In this document: positions 10,343-36,421 of the stretch, in pieces
Position numbering within the stretch: the first letter of the stretch is position 1
How the letters are laid out: each line of letters starts with the position of its first letter
Assembly: GCA_006503475.1 (NCBI GenBank)
Contig: RSEH01000208.1
Location: 23,197-87,196 of the forward strand
Direction of reading: 5' to 3'
DNA from: Stentor roeselii
Lineage: Eukaryota; Ciliophora; Heterotrichea; Heterotrichida; Stentoridae
DNA: 64,000 bases
Position numbers and translations under genes: made by a program
The notes under the pieces: model-generated
The model's database searches: none
Seen by the model: the letters and a program-made list of their open reading frames with translations, nothing else
Told to the model about the DNA's origin: nothing

Positions 10343-10799
10343 TTAGAATTAGGATAATTAAATTTAGTAATAAACTTAAATATTTATCCTGGTACAGAGA
10401 ATGAAGTAGTTATGTAGAGAAAGAATTATTATGAAGTGAATGAAGTAATTATGCAGAGCATGAAATATTTGATAGTTTTTATTACAGGAGAACATTTATT
10501 TATAGTGATATGAAAGAAAATTGATTCTAAAATATTGTTTGTAAGTTCATTCATTTTTGAGATTTTTGTTAAGTCACTTTTTATCTTAATTATCAAATTA
10601 TTTTAAATATTATTAGACGTTTATAAATTTTTTATAGTGCCACACATATCGAGATTCCTTTATCATCTATGTGTAAATCTAATTATTCGAAGATATTCTT
10701 GATTACTTATAACCCTTTATATAAAATTTAATTATTTGAATGCAGGTTAAAAGTATTACCAAATCTCAATCCAAGAAATTTCTTTGTCGAGTAATAATA
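10343..10799. other. Spacer between the two GPCR-PIPK genes, with a short direct repeat
   Basis: A/T-rich. An imperfect direct repeat of ATGAAGTARTTATGYAGAG occurs at 10401-10419 and 10440-10458. The rest carries no recognisable feature. An in-frame upstream ATG at 10740 would extend the next protein by 20 residues. Confidence 0.6.
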
Positions 10800-12933: not shown

Positions 12934-15900
12934 ATGGCCGAAGTACGTCTTCGAAGTACAGAAAGTCTCTCAAAAGACAAGTCCCACTTATTCGACTGGC
13001 TTCAAGAAAAGTCAGCAGTTCCTTACTACCAACAAGGAAATCGTAAATTCGAGTCCGCAGGGATGATCGACCAGCGAAACAAGGTGAAATACACAAGCGA
13101 AGTGCGAAGTGCTATAAACCGTTTCTGGGAATTGATGCCTAAGACTATAGAAGGCCGAGTTGGCAAAACTAGTTACATTGACTTGTGTTTGCGCTTCTCA
13201 AAGCTCTTGATTCCTGATTTTTCCAAGGATGAAATCCTGGCAGTTGCTGAAGAGGACTGGCTGAACGACTCAGAAGGAGCTGATAGTTTGTCTTATTCTT
13301 TGTTTTATAATGCGCTGTTTCAGTTGTGCGATGTTTGGACTGAAGATATCAGTGCTGCTGTTTATAGTGAGTTTTTGATGAAGATATTTAGAAGAATCAC
13401 TTGTAAGAAAACTTTGATGGATGATGGAAGGGTTCGGGAAGACTTGCCTTGTATTCAACTTGTTTTTCCTGATGAACTGAAAAAAGAAGCGGATTGGGAA
13501 GAGGCTGACTCGCAGGAAGAGTATGATGATGACTTTGAGTATAAGTATAATGTTTTGCAGGATGGGAAAAAGGTCAGGGAAAAAAGACTTAAGATGAATG
13601 AGGTCATGGTTGACTCTGGAGGAATTCATTATGATGAAGTTATTTTAAGTAGTTGGGAAGAAACTGCTAAGGGACAGACTCTTCAACTTGCGAGTCTTGA
13701 AGATATCATACCGCTTGGACATATTGCTGAAGACTATCTTACTAGTCTTACTAAAAAAAGTGGAAATTTTGTAGAAGTTAAGAAAGTAGTGGAAGATAGC
13801 CATGAAGAGAAGAAGACTCTTCATGAGAAAAAGACTCTTCATGAAAAAGCCAGTCATGAACGAATAGCTCAAGACAGGCCAAGCAGCCATGAAAAAACAA
13901 GTCACGAAAAAGAAACTCATGAAAAAAAAAGTCATGAAAAAACAACTCACGAAAAAGAAACTCATGAAAAAACAAGTCACGAAAAAGAAACTCATGAAAA
14001 AACAACTCATGAAAAAACCATTCATGAAAAACCAGTTCAAGAAAACCAAATCCTTCAAATATCAGTTCCTCAAAAGCAAGCAACAGTGGAAAAAATCAAA
14101 CCAGAAAAGCAAATAGTTGTAGTAAGCGACATCACAAAACATAAAATAAAACAACAACTCGCAACTTCTTACGTTACCTTAAAAAAGTCAAGTATAAGAG
14201 TCGACAGCAACAACCTGGGCACAGCAGTTCCGAATTCTCGAAAGACAGTCCATGACTTTTCCTTAAGTCTTCTAAAAAGTGACAACAAAGAAACTCCAGT
14301 GAACATCGAAAGACCTGAACTGAGTCGAATAGAAGAGATGAGAAAGACTCAGCTTCAAACGAAATATCAGACTGTCATGAAAAGAGTCGAAAGAAGGGTC
14401 TCAATGCAAGCGAAAAAAGGAATGCTTGAAGTTGAAAAAGACAGAAAAAAGGTCTTAATTCAAGAACCTGAAGTTTTTCATCCAAAGTTTGGACTACTCA
14501 AAGGTCTCTATAGTGCTGAAAAAGTCCTTCCCACTGATCCTCATTCAAATGAAAGGGATATCATTGCAAACTCTAATCTTGATACTTTAAAAATCTTGAT
14601 TATTGGACCTCCAAGGGCAGGGAAAAGCACCTTGGCTCAGGAAATTTGTAAAAGTCTTGACTTGCATCATATTGAATTAGCTTCTATTGTGGAACGACTT
14701 GTTTTGAAAGGAAAAAAAAGTGATGAGGATGAGGCTGAAGATGATGATGAAGAACAGAAAAAACCTGAAATTTTTAATGAATTTGAAAAAAGTGTTGTTG
14801 AAAGACTGCTTTTAGGTGAAAATGTTAGCATTGCTCAAGCTATTCATTTGATTGAACTTGAAATTGATTCTGATGAAGCGCAGAGTAAAGGATTTGTTCT
14901 TGATATTCCTCATCTTCAGGAATATTTTTCGATATTGTCGCAGGTGAAGTTTAATTTTATTGTTACTTTGAAGTTCTCGATTAAAGATTTGAGTCTTCAA
15001 AGCTTGGGACTTAAATGGGACCCGTCATCGAACTTAACCTACTCATCCTGGCACATCCAAGAGCTAACAAAGCCAATCCCGAAAAAAGAAGAAGAAGACG
15101 AAGACCCAAACGAAGAAGACGAAAAACCAAAGTTATCAATCCAATCACTTCTCCAACTTTCCCAAGACTTCCCTGAAAACCTTCTCGATCAAGCTCACAG
15201 ATACTTCCTAACAAGTGAGCCTCTTCTCTTAAAGCTTCCCGATTCCTTACCCGAAAGTAAAAAACTAGAAATCCAAGCAGCCGGTCTTTCTCCAGAATCC
15301 CTAAAAAACATAATCCTTTCAAAACTCGGTTACAAGCTCGAAAAACCATCAGCCTCAAAAAAACTCGAAGGCGAATCAAACCCAAAAGGCCTTCTTCTCC
15401 AAAACGTTGAAGAAAACCAGGAGCCCAGAGCCTTTAGCCTCTGGAAACAAGTAGACCCAGTCGCTTTATTCAACCAAAAACTTGTAATCGGCAAAGCCGA
15501 CTTCGCAGCTGAATATTCAGGAAACGTTTTTATGTTCGACAATGAAGAAAATCAAGAAAAGTTCTTGAAAAATCCTCAAAAATTCCTGAAAACAGAACCG
15601 AAAATGCCGAAAGACTTCAGACTTTGCATTATTGGTCCGAGAAAATCAGGGAAACAAACACAGGCTGAGTACTTGTGTGCGAAGTATGGCTGGACTTTGA
15701 TTGATGTGCCTGATTTGCTTAGAAAATCGATGCAGAACCAGAAAAAAATGATGAGAGACCCGCAACCTTCTCATCCTGATACTGGACTGGTTCAGGTTCC
15801 TGATGGTGAGTTTAGAGCTGTCTTGTCAGGTGAAAGTCTTCCTGCTCAGAATATTTTGCCTATTGTTTTGAATAGACTTGGAATACCTCTCATGAAAAAA

Positions 15901-18900
15901 CCACCTCCACCTCCTACTCCCAAAAGTGAAGAAGAAAATGAAGAAGCTGAACAGGCTGAACAGGCTGAACAAGAGTTAAAACCTTCTGATCAAGATAGTA
16001 AGTCTGATGAGGATCTGAAGGAGGATAATCAAAGTGAAGAACAGATTGAAGGAAAAGAACCGGTTTTGACTGAAGGCCAGGAACCTGCAAATCTTGAGCC
16101 CCAAGAAAAATTGCCAACACCTCCCCCAGAGCCAATAGTCTACGACGACCTTCCATTAACAGAAATAGTCCTAAAAAAAGATGAAAAAGGTCAAAGTCAA
16201 AGTTTGAAAGGCTTCATAATGCTAGGTTACCCAGCAACAGAAGAAGAAGCGACATCTTTAAAAGAATTCAACGTCGAATTCGATAAGATTCTTTATTTCG
16301 TCGATCCAAATGAAGGAGAAATTCTCGCAAGTCGAGGGGCAGAGCAAGTTGTCGACATTCCCAAAGACATCGCTTTCGCTGAGCAGGCCGCTGCTGTTTG
16401 TCGCGACGCCTTTGGTGAGGAAAGCGTTTTAGAGATAAAGATCGATGGAAGTGAACTTGAAATTCATGACAGGATCCTTAAAGCTCTTGACCCGTTTTAT
16501 TTAAATATTGATGACCCTGAAAATGTTGTTTCTAAAGATGAAGGAGGAGAGGAGGCTGTGGTTTCTACTGCTTCTGAGTACTCTCATTATGACCCCACTG
16601 TACTTAAAGAACATCAGTGGCTTATGCCAGGATCGGAAGAGTTTGAGGTTCAGTCTGCTGGGAAAAGGTTCTTGTTTGTAAGTGAAGTTGAAATGGAAAA
16701 GTTTAAGAAAACTCCTCAGGATTATATTATTACGAAACCTGTTCCTGTACCTCAGCCACATGTCTTGGTAACAGGCCCAAGAGGTTCAGGCGTAAAGACA
16801 ATAATCGAAGAGCTTTGCAACAAATACCAAATTCCAGACTTCCAACTAAAGCCAATCTACCTATCATTCCTAGAAGAAGAAAAAATGAAGCGACGTAAAT
16901 CAAGACTACTAAAACGAGGATTCCTTGCAAAAGAAACAACCGAAGAAGACGAGCCATACGACCCGCTTCTTCACGACCCAGAAATAACAGAAGAAGACGA
17001 AAATTTCGACAGGGCGATTCACGAGCGAGTATCTCTTCAAAAAGTGCTTCCAGCAGGTGACCCGCTTGTAATAAACGGGAAGTGGTTCGAAGTCGATGAA
17101 GAAAAAGTCTCTCAACCTCTCGTTGATCTGATGTTTGAAAGTCGAAGATTGCCTGAAGTCGTTCTTATTTTAAGGACTACTGAACAAGCCACTGTTGAAA
17201 GACTTCTTGATAAAAATGGAATCACTCAAAAGTTTGAAGAACTTATGGAAGCGAGAAGAAGGGAAAAGGAAAGGGTACGTGAAGAGGCTAGAAAGGAAAA
17301 AATTCAGGCAAGACTTGAAAAAATAGCCGCTGGTGAAGAGGTTGATGAAAATGAAGAGGAAGAGGAAGAGGAGGAAGAAGGGGATGACCCTGATGCACCT
17401 AATTTAGATGCTATGCTTGATGAGGCAAAACAGAAAATTATTGAAATGAGGGATAATGATAATTCAGCTATTGATGAGTTGAAAGAAGCTTTTGAAGGGA
17501 AAATGATTAGAGTTGTTGAAGTCCAGACAGAAGGCCAATACTCACGTTTAATGCAAAAAATAAACCACGAGCTCAACCCAGTATTCCTAAACCGAAGCAC
17601 TCTTCTCGAAAAAAACCTTGCACTAAAGTTAAAATCTTCTAAAGCCGATGAACTTCTTCAAAAAGGCAAAGCAAAAGTGAGTTGTTTCGGAAATCTCTGC
17701 CCAGTATCCCCTGAATACCCAATCAACAAAAACTTTCCAGTCCTATTCCGAGACCGTATTTATTATCCCGGCAGTGAAATCGACAGGGCAAAACTTGTGG
17801 AAGCGCCTTGGATGTACCTTTCTCAAGACACTCACCCCAGAGATGTTGATTTAAACATTTTCGTCAGTGTCCTTGGAGGACCTGCCTCTGGGAAAACGAC
17901 TCTTGCGAAAGACTTGGAAAAAGACTTGGGTGTTGTTCGAGTCTCGCTTAGAAATGCGGTTTCTCAACTTATTAATCTTGACTCGGAACTCGCGAAATTA
18001 GTTTTGGATCAACTTGCTCTTGGAAAGGCTATCAGTGATGATATTGCTGTTGATGTCATTTCTTGGAGACTTGGACTTGCTGATGTTTTACAGAGAGGAT
18101 GTGTTTTGGATGGATTTCCCAAAACTGCTGATCAGGCTGTTGCTTTAGCTGCTAAGGATTTGTTGCCGAACCCAGTCTTCTACTTAGAATGTGACAAATT
18201 CTCTCTCCTGAAACGTTTAAAACCAAAATTCAAACACGACGACCTCTCACTAAAACTACAAATGAACCAAGGTAACCACAGTCTTCTCGAAACCGTTTCC
18301 TGGTACGAAAACGCATACGACAACATCCGTTACATATCTTCAAACTTCTCAAAATGGTGGGTAAAAGACTCCGCAACAACCTGCATAAACTCAGTTTTCA
18401 CAAGTAAGCGAAACTACTCAATATCCCTAATAAAAGGAACTCCAGTTCGTATAAAAAACCTTCCAATAAGTCGCTCCGAGATAAGCGGAAGATTCGGAAA
18501 GTTCAAAAGATACGACCCGATAATCTTAAAGTACAAAGGCGATCTTCAAGAAGTTAGAAAAGACGAGTTTTTAGTTGAATACAGAACAAAGCTTTATGCT
18601 TTTGAAACTTTTGAAAATATGCAAATTTTCATGAAAAATCCTGAACAGATACTTAAGGGGAAAAATTTGCCGGATTATCTTCCACGAAGACTTGCGCTGA
18701 ATGAAGTAGGAGATATTTATGAGAGTCGTATTGAATTGGAGTCTAATTGTGTTGTTTCTCTTGCTGAAGATGGAAGTTTAGTTAAAGGGAACCCCACTTT
18801 ACTGGTCACTTATAACGACAAAGTCTTCTGCTTCAAAACCGTCGAACAAAGAGAAAAATTCATGAAAAGGCCTCAAAAGTACGAAAAAACCAAACTTCCA

Positions 18901-19332
18901 GTAAAGATTCCTCCAAAGCCAGATAATTTCGTCAACTTCGTTCTCGAAGAATTCGAAACCTCTGTCGGTTTCCTCGACCAGATGCTTGGCCAAGTGATTA
19001 TCAAGGCACTTTTGGAAGTTGGAACTCAAAAACTAATGTATCCGAAACTTTGTATAAAGGAAACTGCATTAAAGCATTTTGCATTATTTTTGAAAGCGAA
19101 TAATCCCAGTAATTCGAAGTTCCAGAAAGAAAAATACTCGAAAAAACTCTGGGAATTCAAACAAAAATGCTGGGTTCAAAGAGAAATTTATGAGGATGGT
19201 GTCAGGATGGAAGCCAGTGAGCTCAGGATGTGGGAGGTGGAGAATTACTTTAAGAAAGGTGAGGAGTATGACCAGTTTGTTGAGGATCTAAGGAAGAATA
19301 TTGATGGGTTTATTGAGAAGTATTTTAGATAA
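12934..19332 (+). CDS. AK9: Adenylate kinase 9-like giant multidomain nucleotide kinase
   Basis: An intronless 2,132-residue protein. Four P-loop modules are visible: GPPRAGKSTLAQ (~557), GPRKSGKQTQAE (~901), GPRGSGVKTIIEE (~1281) and GGPASGKTTLAK (~1648). The third lacks the GK[ST] and is probably inactive. Between them sit repeated YHS-like segments of the type FDNEENQEKFLKNPQKFL (~866), with relatives at ~1248, ~1889 and ~1964, as in metazoan AK9. The N-terminal ~160 residues form an acidic helical domain. Residues ~289-370 are a (S/T)HEK-type five-residue repeat, and further linkers are Glu-rich. AK9 interconverts adenine and other nucleoside mono-, di- and triphosphates and is associated with motile cilia, consistent with the ciliary genes nearby. 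The start follows CTATAAAA. Confidence 0.92.
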   Translation: MAEVRLRSTESLSKDKSHLFDWLQEKSAVPYYQQGNRKFESAGMIDQRNKVKYTSEVRSAINRFWELMPKTIEGRVGKTSYIDLCLRFSKLLIPDFSKDEILAVAEEDWLNDSEGADSLSYSLFYNALFQLCDVWTEDISAAVYSEFLMKIFRRITCKKTLMDDGRVREDLPCIQLVFPDELKKEADWEEADSQEEYDDDFEYKYNVLQDGKKVREKRLKMNEVMVDSGGIHYDEVILSSWEETAKGQTLQLASLEDIIPLGHIAEDYLTSLTKKSGNFVEVKKVVEDSHEEKKTLHEKKTLHEKASHERIAQDRPSSHEKTSHEKETHEKKSHEKTTHEKETHEKTSHEKETHEKTTHEKTIHEKPVQENQILQISVPQKQATVEKIKPEKQIVVVSDITKHKIKQQLATSYVTLKKSSIRVDSNNLGTAVPNSRKTVHDFSLSLLKSDNKETPVNIERPELSRIEEMRKTQLQTKYQTVMKRVERRVSMQAKKGMLEVEKDRKKVLIQEPEVFHPKFGLLKGLYSAEKVLPTDPHSNERDIIANSNLDTLKILIIGPPRAGKSTLAQEICKSLDLHHIELASIVERLVLKGKKSDEDEAEDDDEEQKKPEIFNEFEKSVVERLLLGENVSIAQAIHLIELEIDSDEAQSKGFVLDIPHLQEYFSILSQVKFNFIVTLKFSIKDLSLQSLGLKWDPSSNLTYSSWHIQELTKPIPKKEEEDEDPNEEDEKPKLSIQSLLQLSQDFPENLLDQAHRYFLTSEPLLLKLPDSLPESKKLEIQAAGLSPESLKNIILSKLGYKLEKPSASKKLEGESNPKGLLLQNVEENQEPRAFSLWKQVDPVALFNQKLVIGKADFAAEYSGNVFMFDNEENQEKFLKNPQKFLKTEPKMPKDFRLCIIGPRKSGKQTQAEYLCAKYGWTLIDVPDLLRKSMQNQKKMMRDPQPSHPDTGLVQVPDGEFRAVLSGESLPAQNILPIVLNRLGIPLMKKPPPPPTPKSEEENEEAEQAEQAEQELKPSDQDSKSDEDLKEDNQSEEQIEGKEPVLTEGQEPANLEPQEKLPTPPPEPIVYDDLPLTEIVLKKDEKGQSQSLKGFIMLGYPATEEEATSLKEFNVEFDKILYFVDPNEGEILASRGAEQVVDIPKDIAFAEQAAAVCRDAFGEESVLEIKIDGSELEIHDRILKALDPFYLNIDDPENVVSKDEGGEEAVVSTASEYSHYDPTVLKEHQWLMPGSEEFEVQSAGKRFLFVSEVEMEKFKKTPQDYIITKPVPVPQPHVLVTGPRGSGVKTIIEELCNKYQIPDFQLKPIYLSFLEEEKMKRRKSRLLKRGFLAKETTEEDEPYDPLLHDPEITEEDENFDRAIHERVSLQKVLPAGDPLVINGKWFEVDEEKVSQPLVDLMFESRRLPEVVLILRTTEQATVERLLDKNGITQKFEELMEARRREKERVREEARKEKIQARLEKIAAGEEVDENEEEEEEEEEGDDPDAPNLDAMLDEAKQKIIEMRDNDNSAIDELKEAFEGKMIRVVEVQTEGQYSRLMQKINHELNPVFLNRSTLLEKNLALKLKSSKADELLQKGKAKVSCFGNLCPVSPEYPINKNFPVLFRDRIYYPGSEIDRAKLVEAPWMYLSQDTHPRDVDLNIFVSVLGGPASGKTTLAKDLEKDLGVVRVSLRNAVSQLINLDSELAKLVLDQLALGKAISDDIAVDVISWRLGLADVLQRGCVLDGFPKTADQAVALAAKDLLPNPVFYLECDKFSLLKRLKPKFKHDDLSLKLQMNQGNHSLLETVSWYENAYDNIRYISSNFSKWWVKDSATTCINSVFTSKRNYSISLIKGTPVRIKNLPISRSEISGRFGKFKRYDPIILKYKGDLQEVRKDEFLVEYRTKLYAFETFENMQIFMKNPEQILKGKNLPDYLPRRLALNEVGDIYESRIELESNCVVSLAEDGSLVKGNPTLLVTYNDKVFCFKTVEQREKFMKRPQKYEKTKLPVKIPPKPDNFVNFVLEEFETSVGFLDQMLGQVIIKALLEVGTQKLMYPKLCIKETALKHFALFLKANNPSNSKFQKEKYSKKLWEFKQKCWVQREIYEDGVRMEASELRMWEVENYFKKGEEYDQFVEDLRKNIDGFIEKYFR
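13801..14040 (+). repeat. 15-bp coding minisatellite encoding HEK pentads in the AK9 gene
   Basis: Tandem units of 15 nt of the form CATGAAAAAACAAGT or CACGAAAAAGAAACT encode S/T-H-E-K-T/E. The array is imperfect at its 5' end (HEEKKTL, HEKKTL, HEKASHER) and most regular between ~13890 and 14030. The unit is a multiple of three, so expansion or contraction keeps the frame. Long antisense ORFs here are by-products of this repeat. Confidence 0.9.
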
Positions 19333-19959: not shown

Positions 19960-20472
19960 AGACTAATAATATCGAATAGGATGATTTTTGAGGTTTAAGT
20001 TTCTCTGGTTTTTAGAATTTAGGTGAATTTGAGAGATAGTAGTAAAATTGAGAGAATAATGTGAATTTTTTTGGATTGATATGTTAAAATCTACCTTGAT
20101 ATGATTTTAATGCTGTTATTGAAATTATGTTGAATGATGTATTGTTTATTTTATTTATTTGGAGAGATTTGCAGTTCTGGTGATAAAATTACGAATATTT
20201 TTAGAAAATCTCTAGAAGTATGTGACTTACTTGACTCACTTAATTATATATCTTAGTAGCTCCAAATAAGAAATATAGACTTCAATCATAAATAGCTAAA
20301 TTTTCACCTTATCATTTGGTTAGCATCTTAATACCCATATTCGATAATATTTTTTAATACTTATTTCCCTTCACCTACTTAATAATAACCCATCATAATA
20401 CAAAACCTCTAAAACCCTAAACACTTAAAAACTATAAAAATCTTCTTCTTTCTCAAATCTCCACAATAAACA
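19960..20472. other. Intergenic, no gene seen
   Basis: 513 bp. The first half is G/T-rich and the last ~200 bp are strongly C/A-rich before the ATG at 20473, with CTATAAAAATC at ~20431. A single AAACCCTAAAC near 20407 looks telomere-like but is isolated. Confidence 0.6.
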
Positions 20473-23448
20473 ATGTCTTCAAAGCCAGATAATTTTTTCA
20501 CAGGACTATCAAATCAAGGTGCTACCTGCTACATGAATTCCTTACTTCAATCATTATTCATGACACCAGAGCTAAGAAAAAGCATTTACGAATGGCGATA
20601 TGAAAGATCAAAGCACGGCCCTAAAGAGACCTGCATTCCATTCCAACTTCAAGTCCTTTTCGGCAAGCTTCAACTTTCACAAAAGCCATTCATTGAAACA
20701 AACTACTTAACTCGTAGTTTTGGTTGGGATTCAAAAGAAAGCTTTCAACAACACGACGTTCAAGAGTTTTGCCGTGTTTTATTCGAAGCCATTGAAGAAA
20801 GTGTGAAGTTCACAGATAGTGAAGACCTGATCAGTTCTTTATATGAAGGGTTTTTAACTGACTATGTAAAATGCCTTGCTTGTGGACATGAGTCGAAAAG
20901 AACTGACTCGTTTCTTGACCTGTCATTGACTGTCAGAAATGATTTCGAAGGAATTAAAAATGATTCAATTGAAAAAGCTATTCTTGGATTCACTCGCCCA
21001 GAGTTACTTACAGGAAGTAATAGATATTTCTGTGCTTCTTGTAATATTAAAGTTGATGCGAAAAAAGGACTTAAAATTGAAAAGTTTCCGTATGTTCTTG
21101 TTGCTCAGATCAAGAGGTTTGACTTGAATTATCAGACTTTTCAGAGGATTAAATTGAATGATCGTGTCAGTTTTCCTTTGATTTTAAATTGTAATCGGTT
21201 TCTTGGTGATTTTCAGGAAATTGAGGTTAAGGTTCTGGAAGGGGTTGAAGAAGAGAAAGTTGTTCCTGTTCCTGTTTTGGTGTTTGAATCTCCTAGTAAT
21301 GGCAACTTCAGAGCTCAGACGACTACTGGGTATGAAGGAATGTATGAAGATAAGGATAAGAAATGTATTTTGCCGGACCAGCTCATTCATTCAAGAATAG
21401 TCTCTGAACAAACCACCAGACGTAAACAACAACAAGACCAACTAATAACTCAATATAAAAAAGAAGGCGAGAACGTATACGAGTTATTTTCTATAATGAT
21501 TCACTCAGGTTCTGCATTAGGAGGTCACTACTTCGCCTACATAAAAGACCTCGAAAGTTGTAAATGGTTCAATTTCAACGATTCTTTAGTAAAAGAAATA
21601 GAAGAAAAAGAACTTTCTAAAGCCTTCGGCGGTGATTCTTATGCCAACTCCTCAAACGCTTACCTTTTAATGTACCGAAAAATCTCCTCAGAAAACATTA
21701 TCTCATTAAGAGACCTCGAAGTCCCTCTTCACGTGATCCAAGAAATCCAAACACAATTCGAAGAAGAATCAAAAGAAAAAGACATCCAAACAATAACCTT
21801 CAAAGTAATCCACAACAAAAAAGAACAATCCTTTAAAGTACGTAAAGACCAATCAATGAACGATTTCAAAAGACAAGTAATGCAATCCTTTGAAATTACT
21901 GAATCTTCAGAAAACGTGAGACTGAGATCTTTCAACAGTCTTTACGAAGTACTTCAAGAAACTTTTGATGAAGAAAAAAAAATCTCAAATTTGCCAGTCT
22001 GGGACTTTAAAGTTCTAGGAATTGAAATAAAAAGTCCAGAAGCTGAATGGCAGGCTTTTAACCCTAACTTGATAACTTTAAAAGTATTTGTTTGGGACGA
22101 TTCAATCAATTTTTCATCTCAGCCTGAGCCGGTTCTCTTCCAGTTCGATAAGACAAGTTCTGGAAATATGTTAAAAAAACAACTTTCTGAAAAATTCTGT
22201 ATTCCTGAGAATTCCTTAATCGTTATTAAAAAAACATTCTCCAGTTCCACCCCTGCCAGTGAAGAGATTTTAAAAGAAAAAGGGGATTTTTCTTTGCAAT
22301 CTTTGAAAATCTATGAAAATTCAAGTCTTTACATTGAATCATTCACACAGGTCAGGCCAAAATGGCAGAGTTTCATTGAAATTGAAGGAAAAAGGGTGAA
22401 AATTCGCTTTAACAACCCGGAAGAAGACTTGCCTCAACGACCGGACTGTAAATATTTTATCTTGATTGATAAAGAGTCAACTCTTCAGTGCTTGAAAAGT
22501 CTCATAAGCCAGAAAATTCTTATTCCTGAAGATAAGTTCATCATGAAAAGAAGCAACTCACTTGGAGCTGAAGTAAAAGACTTGACTTTAAAGCTTGTTC
22601 AAGCGAATTTTACTAACAATTCTTTAATTATCATTGAAAAAGGCACCCCTGCTCGACTTTCTGAATTTAAAATCGCTTTTAGTCTTGCTTTAAATTTGAA
22701 AAAAACGGAAAATGCTTCGAAATGTTATGATTTTAGTGATTTAGTTGAAATGACTGTGGATTGTTCTTTGCAGGTTGTTGATGTTAAAGCGCTACTTGTT
22801 AAGGAGGTGAAAAAAATGTTCCCTGCTTTTGATGTTGATGTTTTTAAGATGAGGTTTCGTGAACGTAACTTTGAAAGACTCACGAAATGTTTGAGGAATT
22901 CGGAAAGCTTTAAGGATTTTCAGTTGTTTGATAGGAAGATGATTTGTTTGCAGGTGTTGGATCATGAAGAAGAAGAAGTTCTTCCTTTTCAAATGATTGT
23001 TGTTGCGAAAAGATGGAATCCGGAAACTTGGCAAGTCTCTCCAGCTCAAGAGTTCACAATCCTGCGAAATTCCTCAATGTCAAGCCTCTGCGAAACTTTT
23101 TCAAATTTCTTTAAAATCGAAGTAATCCCTAAAAAGCCTTCAAAACTTCAAGTCTGCAAACTAAACCACCAGAGTTCATTCCAAACACAAGACCTTTCAT
23201 CTCTTCTCTTCATAAAGCCATTCGGGACCATGACTCCAATATCATCAAGTCCATGGCTAGTGTCCTTAGACGGAGTATTATTTTTGTAAAATCCATTCAG
23301 CGTGAAAAGTTCAGACGAGAAAATCCATTCATTCCCATCAATTTCCCAAAATATTCAAATTTCTTCAGAAAAGCCTCAAAATCGTTTAAAAGACGTGAAA
23401 GAAACAGGAATTCGAATAAAAGTCACAAAAGGGGAAAACCCTGAATAA
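20473..23448 (+). CDS. USP47: Ubiquitin-specific protease, USP47-like; one 15-nt intron near the 3' end
   Basis: Exons 20473-23285 and 23301-23448 join across GTAAAATCCATTCAG to give 986 residues. The USP catalytic domain occupies ~9-402. Its Cys box is NQGATCYMNSLLQS (Cys19) and the HDVQEFCRVLFE box follows at ~97. A zinc-ribbon pair CLAC/CASC lies at ~135 and ~187, and the His box GGHYFAYI at ~351. FGWDSKESFQQHDVQEF is typical of USP47, which deubiquitinates substrates including DNA polymerase beta. C-terminal to it are several ubiquitin-like/beta-grasp segments (~430-930). The unspliced frame stops at 23289; splicing adds 49 residues ending GIRIKVTKGENPE. The stop lies nine bases before the next start codon. 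USP40 would be the alternative family name. Confidence 0.88.
23286..23300 (+). other. 15-nt spliceosomal intron (phase 2) in the USP47-like gene
   Basis: GTAAAATCCATTCAG, with A at position 10. The donor GTAA creates the TAA that ends the unspliced ORF. Removal gives a 49-residue C-terminal extension open to 23448. Confidence 0.82.
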
Positions 23449-24435: not shown

Positions 24436-25431
24436 ATGCCTGCTCGAATACGCCTTCAAATCAAGGGCCACCCAGCGAACCGTTTCTTTTGGATCGTTGC
24501 AAGTTCTTCAAAACTCAACCCTCGAGGTAGGCCAATTGAGAGAATGGGTTACTGGTTTCCTGACAGAAAAGGCGTCTATGACGACCGTTCTATTGTCTTG
24601 AACCGTCCTCGCTTGAAGTATTGGATTGGAGTAGGAGCTGAGGTCACTGATGGCGCTTATCGGGTCCTTAGCATGGCTGGCTTTTTGCCGAAGAAGCCTC
24701 CACCTTTTGGAACTAAAGCACTTTATAACAAACCAGCTTGGCTACCCGGACCTGAACCTCCTCAGCCTGTGTTGCCTGATTTGGGAGCTGCTGAAAATAT
24801 CAGGGATATTGTGGAAACAACTGAAAAGAATGTTCAGAAGAGGAAAGATGAATATATTAATAATGCCAGGTCACAATTCCACAAACAAGACAAGAGCCCA
24901 ACCGATCAAATAAATGATTACCTAGAAAGATACAACCTCTACGAAAAAAAGCTGAAAGAAATAATCCCAAACACTCCAAAAGACCGATTGACTGCAATTC
25001 TTTCTCTAATAACCATAGGAGCGGACGAACAAAATGATATCGTATACCAAGCAGAAACCCTATCAGAGAAGCTAAATATTCCTATAGAAAAAGCCGCAAA
25101 CATAATCAAAGCATATGAAGAATCATTTCAAGACTTCGAACAGGCCGATTTAGACGATTTCGACGTTAATTTATCTCGAATGAAACGAGTCTCAAAGTTT
25201 AAACCTGAAGATAAAGTCTATGTTCCAATCCATGACACAGTCACTCCAATGCCCGACTTAGAGAACTATGAGGATCTTTACCCAGGGGACTTCCACGGAA
25301 TCAAGACTTCTCTGAGGCCGAATAAGGAATACGGAGTTTGGTTTGACAAGATGAAGGAGGAACAAAGGAGTTATGAAAAACAAAAGCATAATTATCATAT
25401 TTTTGATCCTCAAGAAGATAAGAGTAGTTAG
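24436..25431 (+). CDS. MRPS16: Mitochondrial ribosomal protein bS16m with ciliate-type C-terminal extension
   Basis: Residues 1-~90 are a bS16 domain: RIRLQIKGHPANRFFWIVASSS, RGRPIERMGYWFP, LNRPRLKYWIGVGAEVTDGAYRVLSMAGFLP. The bacterial protein ends around there (~80-90 residues), but this one continues for ~240 residues. The extension has a Pro-rich linker, a charged helix, and a segment LTAILSLITIGADEQNDIVY, then an acidic stretch and a Tyr-rich tail. bS16 binds 16S-type rRNA in the small subunit body. Large extensions are typical of ciliate mitoribosomes. No obvious cleavable presequence is seen, as in many bS16m. The start follows CTTATAAAA. The final codons (DKSS, TAG) run into the tandem repeat that precedes the next gene. 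Confidence 0.94.
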   Translation: MPARIRLQIKGHPANRFFWIVASSSKLNPRGRPIERMGYWFPDRKGVYDDRSIVLNRPRLKYWIGVGAEVTDGAYRVLSMAGFLPKKPPPFGTKALYNKPAWLPGPEPPQPVLPDLGAAENIRDIVETTEKNVQKRKDEYINNARSQFHKQDKSPTDQINDYLERYNLYEKKLKEIIPNTPKDRLTAILSLITIGADEQNDIVYQAETLSEKLNIPIEKAANIIKAYEESFQDFEQADLDDFDVNLSRMKRVSKFKPEDKVYVPIHDTVTPMPDLENYEDLYPGDFHGIKTSLRPNKEYGVWFDKMKEEQRSYEKQKHNYHIFDPQEDKSS

Positions 25432-25745
25432 ATATAATGAAGAGAAAGATTTTAGATGAATTTTATAAATCTCTTGAAGATTTGGGTAGATAGAGATAAT
25501 GGAGAGAAATATTTTAGATGATTTTTATAAATCTCTTAAAGATTAGGGTAGTTAGAGATAATTAAGAGAAACATTTAGATGATTTTTTACAAACCTCTAG
25601 AAAATTAGGATATTTAGATATAATGAAGAGAAACATTTAGATGATTTTTTAGAAACCTCTAGAAAATTAGGATATTAAGATATAATGAAGAGAAAATTTT
25701 AGATGATTGTTAAAAATCTCTACAAAATTAAGATAGTTAGATAAA
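25427..25745 (+). repeat. Five-copy 62-bp tandem repeat duplicating the next gene's leader and start codon
   Basis: Units are anchored on ATGAAGAGAAA-type starts at 25437, 25499, 25561 (ATG changed to ATT), 25623 and 25685, with a period of 62 bp. The sixth member, at 25746, is the actual start of the downstream gene. Each unit contains a leader (TAGATATA-like), the start codon, codons for K-R-K/N-x-L-D-D-F-Y-K and A/T-rich filler. Copies 1 and 2 still encode short in-frame peptides of 18 and 15 residues; copies 3-5 are interrupted by small indels. Confidence 0.93.
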
Positions 25746-26972
25746 ATGAAGAGAAAAACATTAGATGATTTCTACAAACCTCTGAAAATCGTGAAAATTC
25801 AGGATTCTTGCATTGATGGCTCTAAAGATATTAAAGGTAGGCAAAGTTCAGCTAAGGGGAAAGATGCTTTTCAGGTGATTATGGCGACTTCTCAGAAATC
25901 ACAGAATTTTAATCTACATCTTGAATATCAGCAAATCGAAAACAGGCATAAATGGACTTACTCATTCACTACTGTTCATTCTGCAGTTTTCCAATCAAAA
26001 TCACACAAGTTAAAACTAAATTCTAATGACCCAAACGAGATCATCTTAACCTTTTCAACTAATCATCAAGGCAGCAAGGTCCATTATTTCAACCTTTCAA
26101 AAATTCCTTCTTTTTCCCCTTCTCTACTCAAGTCAATTCTTCAAAAGGCAGTGAGAAGACAGAACCTAAATTCAAGTCTAATGACAAGTCTTCAATTGGC
26201 GGTAAATATCGGGTAAGTCTTACTCAGAATTCAAGAACTTGCAAGAAGACTTTGCGTGATAGTCTTAGAAGACACTTGTTTACACCCTGACTTCCCTCTG
26301 CTCGTCTGGTGCATGGGCGTGAATGATTTCGAATATTCTCAAGAAATGCTTGAAAGTATTTTACAAGTCGTTCATGATATCACTGTCCTCGATTATCAGG
26401 ACTTTTGCATACCTCAGGAAAATTACTCTGTTTATGATGTCTGGAATAATGCAGACTTAATTGTTAAGACTTTGCTTATTCGCGCCTTTTATAAGGGAAT
26501 GGCTGGAGATGTCAAGATGCTCATTGATTTTGCAGTTATTTGGAAGGAACGATTTAAGAAGGAGGAATGGAAAGGTGCTCTTTGTGAATTGTTTCATGGA
26601 ATGATGGATGTTAGATTGTTTGAATTCCAGAAAAAGTATCAACGTGAACATGTATTGTTGGAAGGTGTTGATTTTCATTGTTCGGATATGATTGAATGGA
26701 TTGTTGGTCAGTTGGAAAATGGGGAAAATGGATTTGATTGTCAGGAAAGTTTTAAAAGATATTTAAAGAAAATTATTTGGGACTTGAGAAGCTCGGTTAA
26801 TTTTCGGAAAGGACTTTTTTGTCATGTGAATCTTGGAAAACTTGTGGAGGGGAAAGATGCTTGTGAGAGGGAAGAGGATGTTTTTTATTTGAATCAGGTT
26901 TTACCTTTGATTGAACGATTTTCTCAGGAGGAAATAGATAAAAGGTTTAGGAGAGATAAATTAATTAAATAG
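25746..26972 (+). CDS. Unknown protein with degenerate PIP-box-like N-terminus; one 15-nt intron
   Basis: Exons 25746-26212 and 26228-26972 join across GTAAGTCTTACTCAG, giving 403 residues. I do not recognise the family. The N-terminus MKRKTLDDFYKPLK resembles a PCNA-interacting peptide (L-x-x-F-Y), but the first position is Arg rather than Gln, so this is only suggestive. The central region contains LLKSILQKAVRRQ and, across the splice, ELARRLCVIVLEDTCLHPDFPLLVW. This helical segment, Arg-Arg-Leu then Glu-Asp-x-x-x-His-Pro, is well formed. The C-terminal part is helical and rich in Trp and Phe. No membrane segment is present. Upstream, the gene's start region is repeated five times in tandem. 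A nuclear, replication-linked role is a weak inference. Confidence 0.78.
26213..26227 (+). other. 15-nt spliceosomal intron (phase 2)
   Basis: GTAAGTCTTACTCAG, with A at position 10. It joins GG|A (Gly) and merges two ORFs that otherwise look like separate small genes. Confidence 0.9.
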
Positions 26973-27630: not shown

Positions 27631-30600
27631 ATGGAGCATATGAAGGACCCATATTCCGCATACATCGAACTTCTTTCCTCAGCGTTTGAAAAAATATGCA
27701 AAGCTTTGAGCACTCGAAAGAACAAAGAAACCCGCGACATGTGTTCATCAGCATTAGAAGTGATAAAAAACGACCACAGTCTTGACGCAAACAAATATTT
27801 CCCAATCTTCAAAGAAGCGCTCGACTCAAAACTAACAAAAGTTCTAGAAACCACTCTTTACTACATCCAAAAGTTAATATCCCACGGTTTCCTAACCGGA
27901 AACTGCGAAGACACGTGCAGCTACCCAGAGTCTCCTTCCCTTTCATCCCAGCGTCACCCCCGCAAGATGATAGACGGCATCGTAGAGAGTGTTTGCAAAT
28001 GTGTTCAAGAGACTGACGACAACGTCCAACTTCAAGTGATTAAAACTCTTTTAACAACAATCACGAGCTTCAACTGCGAAGTTCACGACAGGACCTTGCT
28101 GGAGGCCTTCCGCGCTTGTTACCACATTCACATCACTTCAAAGAACCTTGTCAACCAGACGACGGCCAAGGCGACTTTGACTCAAATGATGCATTACGTG
28201 TTTCAAAGAATGGAAAATAACTCAATTGCTATCAGTGAAGACCCAATCAACGCGATGGTTAAAACTGTTGTGAAAGGACTTGTGGATGACGTGGTTCTTT
28301 TTCAGGAAAAACCGGATGATGCACCTTTGAGGACTGTTCCTTATCTTCTAGACCCTGATGATGGTAACTATCAAACTGTTCCTCTTGTTTTTTGCAATAA
28401 TGATGAAGGATTCGTCAGTGGAAAGTTCGGATGGTGCGCAGTTTGTAGAAAATCTGCTGAATTTTACTGTCTTGAGACAAGAGACCCTGTTTGTTCTGAG
28501 AACTGCAAAAAAGCGCATTTGAAAAATATTGAACTTGCGGAAAGATGTCTTAGTGGAGATTATAATGATTACTTATTAGATGCTGTTGTGATTTTTAGAT
28601 CTATTTGTAAACTTAGCTTGAAGGAACTTCCTACTTTAATGCCAAGTTTGACTTTCAAGTCAAAAGTACTGAGTCTCGAGCTGATACTTGCAGTGATTGA
28701 TAATCCAGGCCCAGCTTTTAGTTCACGTCGTCAATTTATGGAGATTATTAGAGGGACTTTATGTGAAAGCTTAATCACGAATTCTTTATCGACAGAAAGA
28801 ACGATCTTCGCACTTTCACTTTCAATTTTTGTTTCACTAGTAAACAACTTCAAGGATAGTTTGAAATCGGAGATTGGGGTGTTCATGGAGCATATTTTCA
28901 TTAAAATCTTGGAATCAGAGAACTCTTCATATCATCATAAGCTTCTGGTAGTTGAGGTGTTCTTTAGAATCACTCAAAACCCACGAACGACTTTAGAACT
29001 CTTTTTGAATTATGATTGTGATGTGGAAGAAAAGGATATTTTCGCAAGGATGATCGATATTTTAGGGAAAATCGCTGTTGGGAAGAATAAGTTTGATAAC
29101 ACCCTACAGCCCCAACAAGAGGGGATACTTAAACTCACTGCTCTTGAAACTTTCACAAGTATTGTCACTACTCAGGTCGCGTGGCTGGAAAAACAGATTG
29201 TTTCGAATAAAACGGAAAATCCTGAAGATGATGAGTCTACTAGTGATATTGGAAGTGATACTACTTTGATTGAGTTTGAGAAAAATAAACTGTTGAAGGC
29301 AAGTATTGGTAAGGCTGTTACTAAGTTTAACATAAAACCAGTCATCGGTATCAAGTACCTTGCGGAGTCAGGTCACATAACATCAGGAAACCACAAAGAA
29401 ATCGCATCATTTTTAAAATTCACTCCAGGAATCGACAAGACAATCCTAGGAGAATTCTTCGGTGGTAACAAAGAGCCAAACATATCAATATTCAACGAAT
29501 TTGTTCAACTCTTCCAATTTGAAAACCTTGGAATAGTGGAGGCCATTCGAGAGTTTTTACTTTCTTTTCGACTTCCCGGAGAAGGGCAGGTCGTAGACCG
29601 AATAATGCAGAAGTTCGCAGAGAAGTACTTCAAGGACAACCCGGAGCACTTCGAAGAGGCTGACACAGTTTACGTCCTTTCATTCGCGATTATCATGTTG
29701 CAGACAGACCTTCACAACGATTCAATTCAAAAGAAAATGCCTTTGGCGCAGTTCCAGATAATGAACAGCGGGATAAACAAGGGAAAAGACCTTGACCCTC
29801 ACTATTTAGAAGAAATTTACAACACAGTGAAAAACAACAAGTTCACCTTAGAAGAAGATGAAGAAGCTCGAGAAAAACTTGAAAGTGCAGGCAAGAAAAA
29901 ACAGCAACTTTTTGTAAGAGAATCTGAAAAAATGTTACAAAAAGGACAGAAGTTGATAAAAGAAAGTAAAAGAACCTCGACTTACTACACCGCTCAGCAT
30001 ATTGACCATCTGAAGACCATGCTTGAAGTTCTCTGGCATCCACTTTTAGCTACTTTTTCCATCATCTTAGAAGAAGCAACTGACCCGAAGTTCTGGAAAC
30101 TTAGTCTTCAAGGTTTTTCTTCTTGCATTCGAATCGCTTGTCGATTTTCCATGACTTTGGAACTTGAGATCTTTTTATCATCTCTTGCGAAGTTCACGTC
30201 TTTGATCTATCTGCACAACCAGATCTCTGAGAAAAACATTGAATGTATGAAAGCTCTTCTTGAAGTTGCTAAGTTTGAATCAAATTTCTTGAAAGGCTCA
30301 TGGTTACATATTTTAAGGTGCTTGTCAAAGTTAGACCATCTTCATCTTATCAGCTCTGGAGTTCAGTTTGATGGACCGGTTACTGAAAATGATATCATCA
30401 ACTCGGAAAGTGTTTCTTTGCAAATCACTCCTGCGGAAATTGACTATATTTTTAATATGTCTGCTACTTTAGATAATGATACTATTATTGAATTTGTCAC
30501 AAGGCTTATTGAAGTCTCACAAGATGAACTCTGGGGACCTCATCCAAGAACTTTTTGTTTGCAGGCTTTGGTGAATGTTGCTGATGTCAACATGAACCGT

Positions 30601-32169
30601 ATGAGGTATGTCTGGTCAAGGGTCTGGAAAACTTTAAGAGACCATTTTTCTCAAGCTGGACTTCATAAAAATCAGTTTGTTGCTTCTTTTGCGATTGACT
30701 CTTTGAAACAACTTGCAATAAAATTCTTACAAAAGGAAGAATTAGAAAATTTTCATTTTCAAAAAGATTTTTTACAGCCTTTTGAGGTGATAATGAAAAA
30801 CAGTGAAATTATTTCGATTAAAGAACTAGTTGTTGCTTGTATGAGCACTTTTGTCTTCACTGTAGGACATAATATAAAATCTGGATGGGGAACTATTATC
30901 GAGGTCTTAGTCTGTGCAACTAAAGAACAGTCTCCCTGTATTCATGAGCAGGCATTCGCAGCACTAAAGAAAATCGTCGAGAAATATCTGCAAAAAGTTC
31001 AAGACTTTCACAGTCAAATCACAAATATCTTGATGGTCTTCGCTGAAGGCAACCTGGAAAGTGTCGCATTTAAAAGTCTTGAAGTGTTAAGCAAAGCAAT
31101 TCTTGAATTTTTACAAATGGAAAAAGGTCCTTGGAAGCCACTTCTTCTAGTCCTCGCCAAGGCGACGAAGGAGCCGCGGCCTGCAGTGAGAGGACCAGCT
31201 CCTTCAGTACTTTACTCTACTCTAAACCAAGGAAAATTCAGTGAAAATCAGTTAAAAGAAGTTTTCAAAGAAATCATCAGTCCTCTCTTCGAAGACTTCA
31301 AAGGTGAGACTGATAAAGACTGGATAAGCAGTACTTTTACGATGAGTCTTTCAGGATTAAGCAGTTTGATCTCAGAAAAATTCGACTTGCTGCAAGATAT
31401 CGTCCCAAGTTTCATTCAGATCATTCAGACCTCAGTTCTTTCAATGAATGAAAATCTTGCAAAAGTCGCTTTGGCAGTTTACAAAGGCTTTATTAGTTTA
31501 AATTACCCGAAACTTTCAAAAGGTCTTTGGGATGTTTTTGTTGTTTCTACAATGAAAGTCGTTGAAAGTGCAACACCTGATGAGCTTTTTCAGGAAATCG
31601 TGAATAATAAACTTCCTTTCGACCCGAGACATATTTCTGATAAGATCTTGATTTTACATCATTTTTTACTCTGCATGAAAGAATTGATTAACTGTGAACT
31701 GGAGAAGGATGTGACTGAAAAGTGCATTAAAATCTTTTACTCGGTTTATGATTTTGCAAGGAAATTCAACTCAAATCACTCGCTGAGGAAAGCGCTTTGG
31801 CATGCTGGGTTCATGGCTGGAAATAAAACCCTTCCTGGGCTTTTCAGGCTGGAAAAAGAAGCTCTTATCATCGTTCTTGAACTTATTCATAAGGGAAATG
31901 AACAGAGCCAGATTTACTTGATTGCGAAAGATTTACTTGCTGATGTCAGTCAAAAGGATAAGTTTTTCAATGAGAGGAAAGAAGAAATTGCCTCTTTAGA
32001 ACAGGTTGTTGCTAAAAATTTACTACCGAATCTTGCTGAAAGGGTTGAAGATGCCATGAAATTCGTTGGCGAGGAAATTGTTGAACTTGTCACTGTCCCT
32101 GACTTGAGCATTCGTGATGAACTCAAAAAACTCTTGAGATGTAGTTTGAAGGTTTTTAAAAATGGGTAA
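27631..32169 (+). CDS. BIG/Sec7-type guanine nucleotide exchange factor for Arf, with an inserted zinc finger
   Basis: A 1,512-residue protein with the BIG1/2-Sec7p layout. The DCB/HUS helical N-terminus spans ~1-480. The Sec7 domain (~565-755) has the catalytic Glu in FRLPGEGQVVDRIM (~650) and the Arf-docking segment AIIMLQTDLHNDSIQ. HDS-type HEAT repeats follow to the end. It activates Arf GTPases at the trans-Golgi/endosomes for coat recruitment. A Cys-rich insert, CAVCRKSAEFYC then CSENCKKAH (~267-290), sits ahead of the HUS box and looks like a HIT/MYND-type zinc finger. It is absent from animal BIGs as far as I recall. GBF1-type GEFs are excluded by the HUS-Sec7-HDS arrangement and length. 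The 5' end is unusually C-rich in codon choice. Confidence 0.95.
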   Translation: MEHMKDPYSAYIELLSSAFEKICKALSTRKNKETRDMCSSALEVIKNDHSLDANKYFPIFKEALDSKLTKVLETTLYYIQKLISHGFLTGNCEDTCSYPESPSLSSQRHPRKMIDGIVESVCKCVQETDDNVQLQVIKTLLTTITSFNCEVHDRTLLEAFRACYHIHITSKNLVNQTTAKATLTQMMHYVFQRMENNSIAISEDPINAMVKTVVKGLVDDVVLFQEKPDDAPLRTVPYLLDPDDGNYQTVPLVFCNNDEGFVSGKFGWCAVCRKSAEFYCLETRDPVCSENCKKAHLKNIELAERCLSGDYNDYLLDAVVIFRSICKLSLKELPTLMPSLTFKSKVLSLELILAVIDNPGPAFSSRRQFMEIIRGTLCESLITNSLSTERTIFALSLSIFVSLVNNFKDSLKSEIGVFMEHIFIKILESENSSYHHKLLVVEVFFRITQNPRTTLELFLNYDCDVEEKDIFARMIDILGKIAVGKNKFDNTLQPQQEGILKLTALETFTSIVTTQVAWLEKQIVSNKTENPEDDESTSDIGSDTTLIEFEKNKLLKASIGKAVTKFNIKPVIGIKYLAESGHITSGNHKEIASFLKFTPGIDKTILGEFFGGNKEPNISIFNEFVQLFQFENLGIVEAIREFLLSFRLPGEGQVVDRIMQKFAEKYFKDNPEHFEEADTVYVLSFAIIMLQTDLHNDSIQKKMPLAQFQIMNSGINKGKDLDPHYLEEIYNTVKNNKFTLEEDEEAREKLESAGKKKQQLFVRESEKMLQKGQKLIKESKRTSTYYTAQHIDHLKTMLEVLWHPLLATFSIILEEATDPKFWKLSLQGFSSCIRIACRFSMTLELEIFLSSLAKFTSLIYLHNQISEKNIECMKALLEVAKFESNFLKGSWLHILRCLSKLDHLHLISSGVQFDGPVTENDIINSESVSLQITPAEIDYIFNMSATLDNDTIIEFVTRLIEVSQDELWGPHPRTFCLQALVNVADVNMNRMRYVWSRVWKTLRDHFSQAGLHKNQFVASFAIDSLKQLAIKFLQKEELENFHFQKDFLQPFEVIMKNSEIISIKELVVACMSTFVFTVGHNIKSGWGTIIEVLVCATKEQSPCIHEQAFAALKKIVEKYLQKVQDFHSQITNILMVFAEGNLESVAFKSLEVLSKAILEFLQMEKGPWKPLLLVLAKATKEPRPAVRGPAPSVLYSTLNQGKFSENQLKEVFKEIISPLFEDFKGETDKDWISSTFTMSLSGLSSLISEKFDLLQDIVPSFIQIIQTSVLSMNENLAKVALAVYKGFISLNYPKLSKGLWDVFVVSTMKVVESATPDELFQEIVNNKLPFDPRHISDKILILHHFLLCMKELINCELEKDVTEKCIKIFYSVYDFARKFNSNHSLRKALWHAGFMAGNKTLPGLFRLEKEALIIVLELIHKGNEQSQIYLIAKDLLADVSQKDKFFNERKEEIASLEQVVAKNLLPNLAERVEDAMKFVGEEIVELVTVPDLSIRDELKKLLRCSLKVFKNG

Positions 32170-34689: not shown

Positions 34690-35373
34690 TTACTGTTCAT
34701 ATTCCTCATAACTTTCATTAACAATCCTCTTAATCGCAATCAAATTTTTCAAAGTGACAGCCAAGTCCTGTGTATTCCCCTCGACCTTACAATTCTCCAA
34801 AGCTTTCTTCAACAAATTTTCCGCCTTCGCGAAATTCCCTTCATGCACAAGACAAAGCGCAAAAAGATTCAACAAAATGCTAGACTCTCCAAATTTAGCA
34901 ATAAGTTCATTAGCGATTCCAGCAGCTTCTTCAAATTCTCCTTTCATAAACAAAGAAAAAGCAAGTAAAAGGCTAAATCCCGCTTCTTCTTCATCTTGAT
35001 TCAAAGCAGCTTTCATTGCTTTTTCAGCGTATTCAGGTCTGCGTATTTTAAGAAGAGCAGCAGCTAAAAACATGATTTTTTCGTAGTTGTCAGGCTTTAT
35101 GTTGTCGATCAACTGACACTCCTGACCAGTGTTAAGCTGCAGAAGGAAGGTCAAAGTTTCACTCAAGGCGTCGTCGTGCACTGAGACTGATGAAAATGAA
35201 TTCAAATGATCTCTAAGTGATTCTAAGTTGTTTAGTGATAATGATGGCTTCTTTCCTAGTTGAACCTGGGCACGGGATATAAGAAGCTCTATTGAATCTG
35301 GCTTCTTTCCTGGAGATTGAAGAAGGGATGAATAGTTACCTGTGAAAAATAAAGAACGAAGCTTTCCTTCCAT
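34690..35373 (-). CDS. COPE: Coatomer epsilon subunit (epsilon-COP)
   Basis: A 227-residue all-helical protein of TPR type. It has an N-terminal LRSLFFTGNYSSLLQ repeat, then IKPDNYEKIMFLAAALLKIRRPEYAEKAMKAA, a central repeat with LLLAFSLFMKGEFEEAAGIANEL, and a C-terminal repeat LFALCLVHEGNFAKAENLLKKALEN followed by TLKNLIAI. The order and the last two motifs fit epsilon-COP, which caps alpha-COP in the COPI cage for retrograde Golgi-ER transport. It is shorter than animal and yeast proteins (~300), with a reduced C-terminus. Another TPR protein cannot be excluded by eye. It converges on TM9SF, whose tail is a COPI-type sorting signal. Spacing between stops is 114 bp. Confidence 0.75.
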   Translation of the reverse strand: MEGKLRSLFFTGNYSSLLQSPGKKPDSIELLISRAQVQLGKKPSLSLNNLESLRDHLNSFSSVSVHDDALSETLTFLLQLNTGQECQLIDNIKPDNYEKIMFLAAALLKIRRPEYAEKAMKAALNQDEEEAGFSLLLAFSLFMKGEFEEAAGIANELIAKFGESSILLNLFALCLVHEGNFAKAENLLKKALENCKVEGNTQDLAVTLKNLIAIKRIVNESYEEYEQ

Positions 35374-36421
35374 TATTTTAATAGATGGAAAAGGTTTTGA
35401 ATTTGGACTTAGCGTTTCTTGGTTTTTTTGGATTTGGGGATTTTTGGGGGTAAGGGATTTTTAGTTGAATTTGAAGTTTTTTTGGGGAAATTTTTGGTTT
35501 GAAATAATTTTTTGCGTTAGACATACGTTATTATATTGGTGGAGATAATTATTTAAAAAAGTTTTGTTTAGTTTTATTTGATATCTTGGGCTTCTTCATG
35601 AATTAATTTAGGATTAGGTTTTGTTTCCTTGAATGAAAATCCGAATTTTATGAAGTTTAACTATTCTAGAAATTAATAGTGAAAATTTACCTTGACAAAA
35701 AAGCGAAGAATATCCTTAACTTGGTTCTAAATCGATTTAAATCAATCCAGCGATTTAAGTTATTGTAATTTACTATTGATAAAATATGTTTTGATATTTG
35801 TAATGATGAAAGATAAATTATTGTTTGATTGTTACTTTAGGAATATTAAACTTCAAAAAAGGATATAGAGTTTCATATCAGGGATAAATTCTTGTCTCTT
35901 TGTGCTTGAGGGCCGTGTTTCTAAGTCAATTGAAGTCTTTATCATGAATAAGCAGATTTTTCATAAAACGCCTTTCGACTTCTTGAGACCAGAAAAAATT
36001 AAAGAAAATCTACAACCATTTTCCTATTCAAGTTAGACTCCAAAAAAATCCAATTCTGCCTTGTTCATCGAAAAAATCATTCTATTCAATTTTAAGTATT
36101 CGAAAAGTATCAATTTCTAAATTTTTATTGTTTATATCATCGAATTCCAATTTTTCATCCCTGAATTCATTAGGTACTCCATTTCAGTAAAAATTTGATT
36201 TCTTACCCTTAAGAAGGTCTAAAGATAATCTATCCCTCTAAGAATATCAGAAACTTAATCTAAATCAATTTATCCTCTTTCCCGAGACTGAAGATCGTCA
36301 TTCTTGGTAGTTCAACCAGAGTTTGTGGCGCCGAAATTTTAGGCAATTCAAAGTTTTCTAGTTCTTTAAACTGTATTTCTTCTTGAACAAAACCTTCCAG
36401 ATGATGAAAGATACAAGTTAG
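35374..36421. other. Intergenic ~1 kb, no supportable gene
   Basis: G/T-rich next to the COPE start (C/A-rich on the gene strand). A 30-codon ORF begins at 35944 (MNKQIFHKTPF...), too short and without motif to call. Near 36289 one frame reads LKIVILGSSTRVCGAEIL, reminiscent of a small-GTPase P-loop but lacking GK[ST] and with no continuation. Confidence 0.5.

Follow-up and report, generated by a model that had tools for sequence, protein, structure and literature searches.

A tandem array before a Stentor roeselii start codon probably derives from duplication of a tight gene junction

In the heterotrich ciliate Stentor roeselii, a head-to-tail array of 62-bp units lies between a gene of the ribosomal protein S16 family and the co-directional gene that follows, whose start codon is at position 25746 of the window (the whole 64,000-nucleotide stretch of contig RSEH01000208.1 that was analysed). 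We judge it probable that this array arose by stepwise tandem duplication of a tight gene junction and that its inner copies are now decaying, with the downstream gene most likely translated from 25746 only. Judged by its letters, the array reaches left to about 25408, into the S16 coding sequence, and its unit is a duplicated gene junction in which the S16 end, a 5-nt spacer and the beginning of the downstream gene follow one another. An earlier note on this DNA was correct about the copies of the gene start, and overlooked the S16 end within the unit, a similar second spacer in the window and the tiny intron of the downstream gene.

Results

The window has a GC content of 34%, and its long open reading frames (ORFs) are in the standard code. 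This code, together with a 15-nt spliceosomal-type intron at 26213 to 26227 (forward strand; GTAAGTCTTACTCAG, with A at position 10) whose removal joins two ORFs into 403 codons, is what a heterotrich (Stentor-like) nuclear genome would show. Stentor coeruleus is described as using the standard code, with introns of 15 to 16 nt and a branch A mostly at position 10 or 11 (PMC9505925). Our gene model is a simple, uncurated codon-usage parse that permits only introns of 15 or 16 nt with a branch A at position 10 or 11; it holds 33 genes and 32 spacers, and its seven introns are all 15 nt long. Among the other genes, a ubiquitin carboxyl-terminal hydrolase (20473 to 23448; USP47 C-terminal match, obtained with the ORF to 23289) is modelled with a 15-nt intron at 23286 and stops 9 nt short of the following gene, and a BIG/Sec7-type protein (27631 to 32169; Sec7 E = 4.9e-64) is intronless in the gene model. 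Rfam searches at gathering thresholds and a tRNA scan found nothing in the window.

The gene upstream of the array (24436 to 25431, forward strand) encodes a 331-residue protein of the ribosomal protein S16 family (Pfam PF00886, E = 1.8e-11), presumably of mitochondrial ribosome origin. The gene downstream (25746 to 26972, forward strand) consists of the two ORFs joined by the intron and encodes a 403-residue protein with no assigned family. No Pfam family reached the cut-off for this protein, the two sub-threshold matches having E values of 0.048 and 0.069, and nothing was found in NCBIfam or PHROGs up to E = 1. Comparison with PDB sequences gave a single match (E = 0.84) and no relative. Pattern searches returned 71 matches in IMG/VR and 66 in prokaryote genomes, none of which was confirmed; these are viral and prokaryote collections, and the lack of a relative there says little about a eukaryotic protein. 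Structure prediction from the single sequence gave a model too poor to use (mean pLDDT 35.9).

The N-terminus of the 403-residue protein, RKTLDDFYKPLK, resembles in sequence a PCNA-binding PIP box (PCNA-interacting peptide). When compared by eye with the motif Qxx[LMIV]xx[FY][FY], the segment RKTLDDFY has the aliphatic residue and both aromatic residues, and carries R for Q at the first position. In PMC6881253, 34% of the sequences considered are without the PIP-box Q, and replacement of Q by A in p21 is given as lowering affinity 50-fold; the FEN1 peptide is given there as TQGRLDDFFKVTGSL, which the N-terminus resembles apart from R rather than Q at position 1. The PIP degron, as described in PMC8871960, has TD at positions 5 and 6 and a basic residue at +4; here the corresponding residues, again by eye, are DD and K, and the degron pattern is not matched.

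Equivalents of the start codon occur at 25437, 25499, 25561 (ATT), 25623, 25685 and 25746, with spacings of 62, 62, 62, 62 and 61 bp. Tandem Repeats Finder (TRF) delimits an array at 25425 to 25789 with a period of 62, 5.9 copies and a score of 446. Lag-62 identity within the array is 0.84 over 248 bp. When the whole window was subjected to 20 dinucleotide shuffles, identity at lags of 20 to 300 never exceeded 0.44, so that no shuffle came near the observed value. By TRF and these shuffles the array is of the minisatellite type, in that it has head-to-tail copies of a unit of 10 to 100 bp beyond chance expectation. Each unit copies the leader of the downstream gene, its start and some 12 to 14 codons. 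These results bear out the description in the earlier note of five tandem units before the ATG at 25746, with this periodicity and this content.

All units are on the forward strand. Unit 1 (25423 to 25484, ATG at 25437) contains an 18-residue ORF, MKRKILDEFYKSLEDLGR, and unit 2 (25485 to 25546, ATG at 25499) a 15-residue ORF, MERNILDDFYKSLKD; both retain the reading frame, as had been claimed. The remaining three carry indels or a mutated ATG, again as previously noted. In unit 3 (25547 to 25608) the start is mutated to ATT at 25561, and −1 and +1 indels are present that are shared with unit 4 (25609 to 25670, ATG at 25623), which has a five-residue ORF. Unit 5 (25671 to 25731, 61 bp, ATG at 25685) also has a five-residue ORF and is shorter by a net one base. 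The sixth unit (25732 to 25789) is the downstream gene's own and comprises its leader, the real ATG at 25746 and its first codons, with similarity stopping near CTCTGAAAAT.

Nine ATGs are present in 25401 to 25745, and every ORF that begins at one of them terminates before 25746. Also present are 16-nt strings like GTTAGATATAATGAAG (GT, A at position 11, AG) that resemble tiny introns; they lie at 25427 to 25442, 25551 to 25566 and 25736 to 25751, and overlap the start-codon region of unit 1, unit 3 and the downstream gene.

The left edge of the array (25408 to 25436, forward strand) holds the last seven codons and stop of the S16 gene (25408 to 25431, CCT CAA GAA GAT AAG AGT AGT TAG) followed by a 5-nt spacer, ATATA (25432 to 25436). 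When the 19 S16 coding bases from 25408 to 25426 are set in register with the five unit junctions, 13, 13, 14, 14 and 11 of 19 positions match, for a total of 65 of 95. This score is equalled by only one of 49,102 19-mers from the coding sequences of the other 32 gene models, and the next highest in-register score among the 33 gene ends, taken at equal distance from the stop, is 50. A 24-nt in-register version of the comparison gives p values of 0.0004 to 0.0016 for four junctions and 0.08 for the fifth. In a comparison of the S16 end over 60 nt with the spacer, p was 0.033 (300 shuffles).

Profile searches depend on how the units are cut. With nhmmer and a profile of units 1 to 5 cut from ATG to ATG, 25408 to 25436 is the top match outside the six units (E = 0.019), ten of its bases being already counted in unit 1. 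When all six units are profiled, with the cut placed 14 nt ahead of the ATG, there is no match at 25408, and the best outside match is 20189 to 20218 (E = 0.22). When an 87-nt S16 tail is aligned freely to the array, the local score is not significant, being reached by 220 of 1000 shuffles and by 45 of 566 other coding 87-mers. We therefore limit the claim to the in-register stretch from 25408 to 25426. The free alignment test lends no support to the larger proposal that the S16 tail is a full degenerate unit extending back to about 25373. The array itself stands as first reported, whereas its left edge, placed at 25427 in the earlier note, moves into the S16 coding sequence, with the proviso that the free alignment is not significant.

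Over 63 aligned columns no two of the six units are identical, and pairs differ at 5 to 17 columns. Units 1 and 2 differ at 8 columns, units 3 and 4 at 5, units 4 and 5 at 9 and units 2 and 3 at 11, with 12 to 15 differences for the other pairs among these five. The downstream gene differs from units 1 to 5 at 16, 17, 15, 14 and 17 columns, respectively, and is nearest to unit 4 rather than to the neighbouring unit 5. Among units 1 to 5, as read from the alignment, the order of similarity agrees with stepwise duplication in tandem. Each of units 3 and 4 has one −1 and one +1 indel that offset one another, and the constant 62-bp period is thus partly accidental. The regular period had earlier been taken to mean that the duplications were exact; the period holds, but exactness does not follow from it.

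Signs of decay include the lost ATG of unit 3, frame-breaking indels in units 3 to 5 and a stop at the tyrosine codon in units 4 and 5. Among units 1 to 5, 9 of the 13 copied codons are variable when compared in the frame of the gene, which is already broken in units 3 to 5, and 8 of these 9 change a residue, the start or a stop in at least one unit; codon 13 alone varies in a purely synonymous manner. Where the other five sequences agree, all five changes private to one unit in the codon block are nonsynonymous or destroy the start.

By codon position, 3, 1 and 5 of 13 columns vary among units 1 to 5, a third-position lean (p = 0.13) that rests on few changes and has low power. Among the five variable third-position columns are those with the lost start, the tyrosine-codon stops and an Asp-Glu change. 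Set against the unit majority, the gene has 1 difference in 13 first positions, 1 in 13 second positions and 5 in 13 third positions (Fisher p = 0.03), and three of these seven differences (codons 9, 10 and 13) are synonymous. With low power, the codon pattern fits a gene under constraint and copies free of it, as far as sequence comparison can tell; past constraint on units 1 and 2 is possible. Conservation is no higher in the leader than in the codons, with 8 of 14 columns invariant among units 1 to 5 compared with 29 of 40.

Arrays also occur elsewhere in the window. Among the 24 co-oriented spacers of the gene model, 8 are shorter than 40 nt and 14 longer than 100 nt, with 9 nt the shortest. 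A second array at 8029 to 8344, of three units spaced by 117 and 98 bp, fills the spacer between the gene models at 7513 to 8043 and 8351 to 10342; it begins within the final codons of the upstream gene and stops 6 bp short of the following start codon. The end of its upstream gene matches the spacer better than in any of 300 block shuffles, and the start of its downstream gene has no match to the spacer (p = 0.41). Whole-spacer arrays therefore account for 2 of the 14 long co-oriented spacers.

A further candidate at 34690 to 36259 is not counted: the start of the minus-strand gene at 34690 to 35373 has a gapped match to its own spacer that one of 300 block shuffles equalled, and the neighbour's edge gave p = 0.020, but these were among 48 tests. 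Two shorter TRF arrays lie within other spacers (10396 to 10469 and 20096 to 20144). Within the long gene model at 12934 to 19332 there is a tandem repeat of 15/45 bp, a multiple of three, at 13888 to 14045.

Discussion

The array could have formed as follows. A 62-bp segment over a very tight junction of two co-directional genes would have been duplicated in tandem several times, the segment running from the last seven codons and stop of S16 across the 5-nt spacer into the ATG and first codons of the downstream gene. The copies were likely joined at the short match between CCTCAAGAAGAT at 25408 in the S16 gene and CCTCTGAAAAT at 25779 in the downstream gene. At the first of these, CCTC is followed by AAGAAGAT, and at the second by TGAAAAT; they are 371 bp apart, and come to lie 62 bp apart once the five extra units (309 bp) are subtracted. 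In later rounds one or a few units may have been copied at a time by unequal exchange or slippage, which would leave neighbours mostly most alike among units 1 to 5.

Throughout such rounds the outer edges would be kept, with the S16 end and the rightmost start, that of the downstream gene, left intact, and the inner copies would be free to decay. The spacer would thereby have grown from 5 to 314 nt. The ancestral spacer implied here would be tight even for this window: no co-oriented spacer in the gene model is as short (the next is 9 nt), although the lengths are of similar order. Translation from 25746 would probably use a transcript whose short leader begins in the last units or directly after them. 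The sequence itself shows the units, the S16 end in register with them, the order of similarity and the decay; from these we infer how the ends were joined, that the spacer was once 5 nt, where the transcript starts and that the copies lack a function. The earlier note had offered a decaying duplication product as one of three readings, and this is the best supported, given the lost ATG, the indels, the stops and the alteration of 8 of 9 variable codons.

Among explanations that give the copies a role, an array that repeats the core promoter and start-site context would best account for the data, although we regard it as a minor possibility. Extra copies would add transcription starts or space the gene from S16, relieving interference. 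The leader is indeed copied in every unit and is A/T-rich, like 26 of the 32 leaders in the gene model (9 or more of the 12 bases preceding the ATG are A/T); expansion made 314 nt out of the inferred 5-nt spacer, and the second array likewise multiplies a whole spacer. Promoter tandem repeats can affect regulation elsewhere (PMC3566118). However, a leader that is conserved no better than the adjacent codons is not what this explanation would lead one to expect.

It is improbable that the array acts as a self-made uORF array, in which the units would be part of the transcript and ribosomes starting at upstream ATGs would damp translation from 25746. The nine upstream ATGs, with ORFs that all end before the gene, and the frame retained in units 1 and 2 accord with such a role, but unit 3 has no ATG, the ORFs of units 4 and 5 encode five residues, and most of the variation in the copied codons changes the peptide. 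Moreover, most upstream ATGs would fall outside the mRNA if 5′ UTRs are short here too. In the Loxodes genome paper, 5′ UTRs are taken to be short and tightly distributed, as in other ciliates (PMC11441545), which is an assumption rather than a measurement; the available text of a Stentor regeneration study (PMC9371601) and of a Blepharisma study (PMC9942856) gave no 5′ UTR lengths. We consider it very improbable that the upstream copies are translated into decoy micropeptides that would mimic the PCNA-binding-like N-terminus and compete with the product or adjust its translation. Apart from the ATGs being there, nothing positively supports the uORF and decoy reading put forward in the earlier note.

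Tandem repeats are easily misassembled, but an assembly artefact is extremely improbable here: the six units differ pairwise, and since no two are identical, reads can be placed. A spliced or decoded extension of the coding region, giving a longer protein that carries several PIP-like motifs, can practically be dismissed: despite the repeated PIP-like peptide and the GT...A11...AG strings in units 1, 3 and the gene's own unit, no GT-AG path with introns of 15 or 16 nt leads from any ATG in 25341 to 25745 to the frame of the gene, 62 is no multiple of three and the units contain stops.

Duplication of a gene junction followed by decay shares features with several known systems. The human thymidylate synthase 28-bp repeat (TSER) is likewise a tandem repeat just upstream of a start codon, with a possible effect on expression (PMC2528158, PMC7712088). 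Unlike TSER, the unit described here itself holds the start codon, N-terminal codons and the end of the upstream gene. Yeast GCN4 also has several short ORFs before one start codon, and these uORFs are transcribed and functional; the ORFs in our array differ in deriving from the gene's own start, and are known from DNA sequence only.

Partial tandem gene duplications arise by joining at short homologies or by slippage. The array resembles them in its head-to-tail copies that include the beginning of a gene, in its decay after duplication and in the likeness of most neighbours. It differs in that its unit spans a gene-gene junction, which it would do because the original spacer was only about 5 nt. 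Among the matches listed from a partial literature collection, none concerned arrays of this kind.

The locus is a readable example of what follows where spacers are only a few bases to some tens of bases long: an ordinary tandem duplication cannot avoid copying one gene's end together with the next gene's start, and start and stop codons then arise as by-products. So far there is no evidence that the copies do anything; to judge from their sequence, a promoter effect is possible and a translated uORF array unlikely. The array is most likely an ordinary accident of DNA copying. If any upstream start were in use, it would represent a new uORF array observed at an early stage. Together with the second array in the window, the locus suggests that spacers in this genome may grow by tandem duplication of whole gene junctions.
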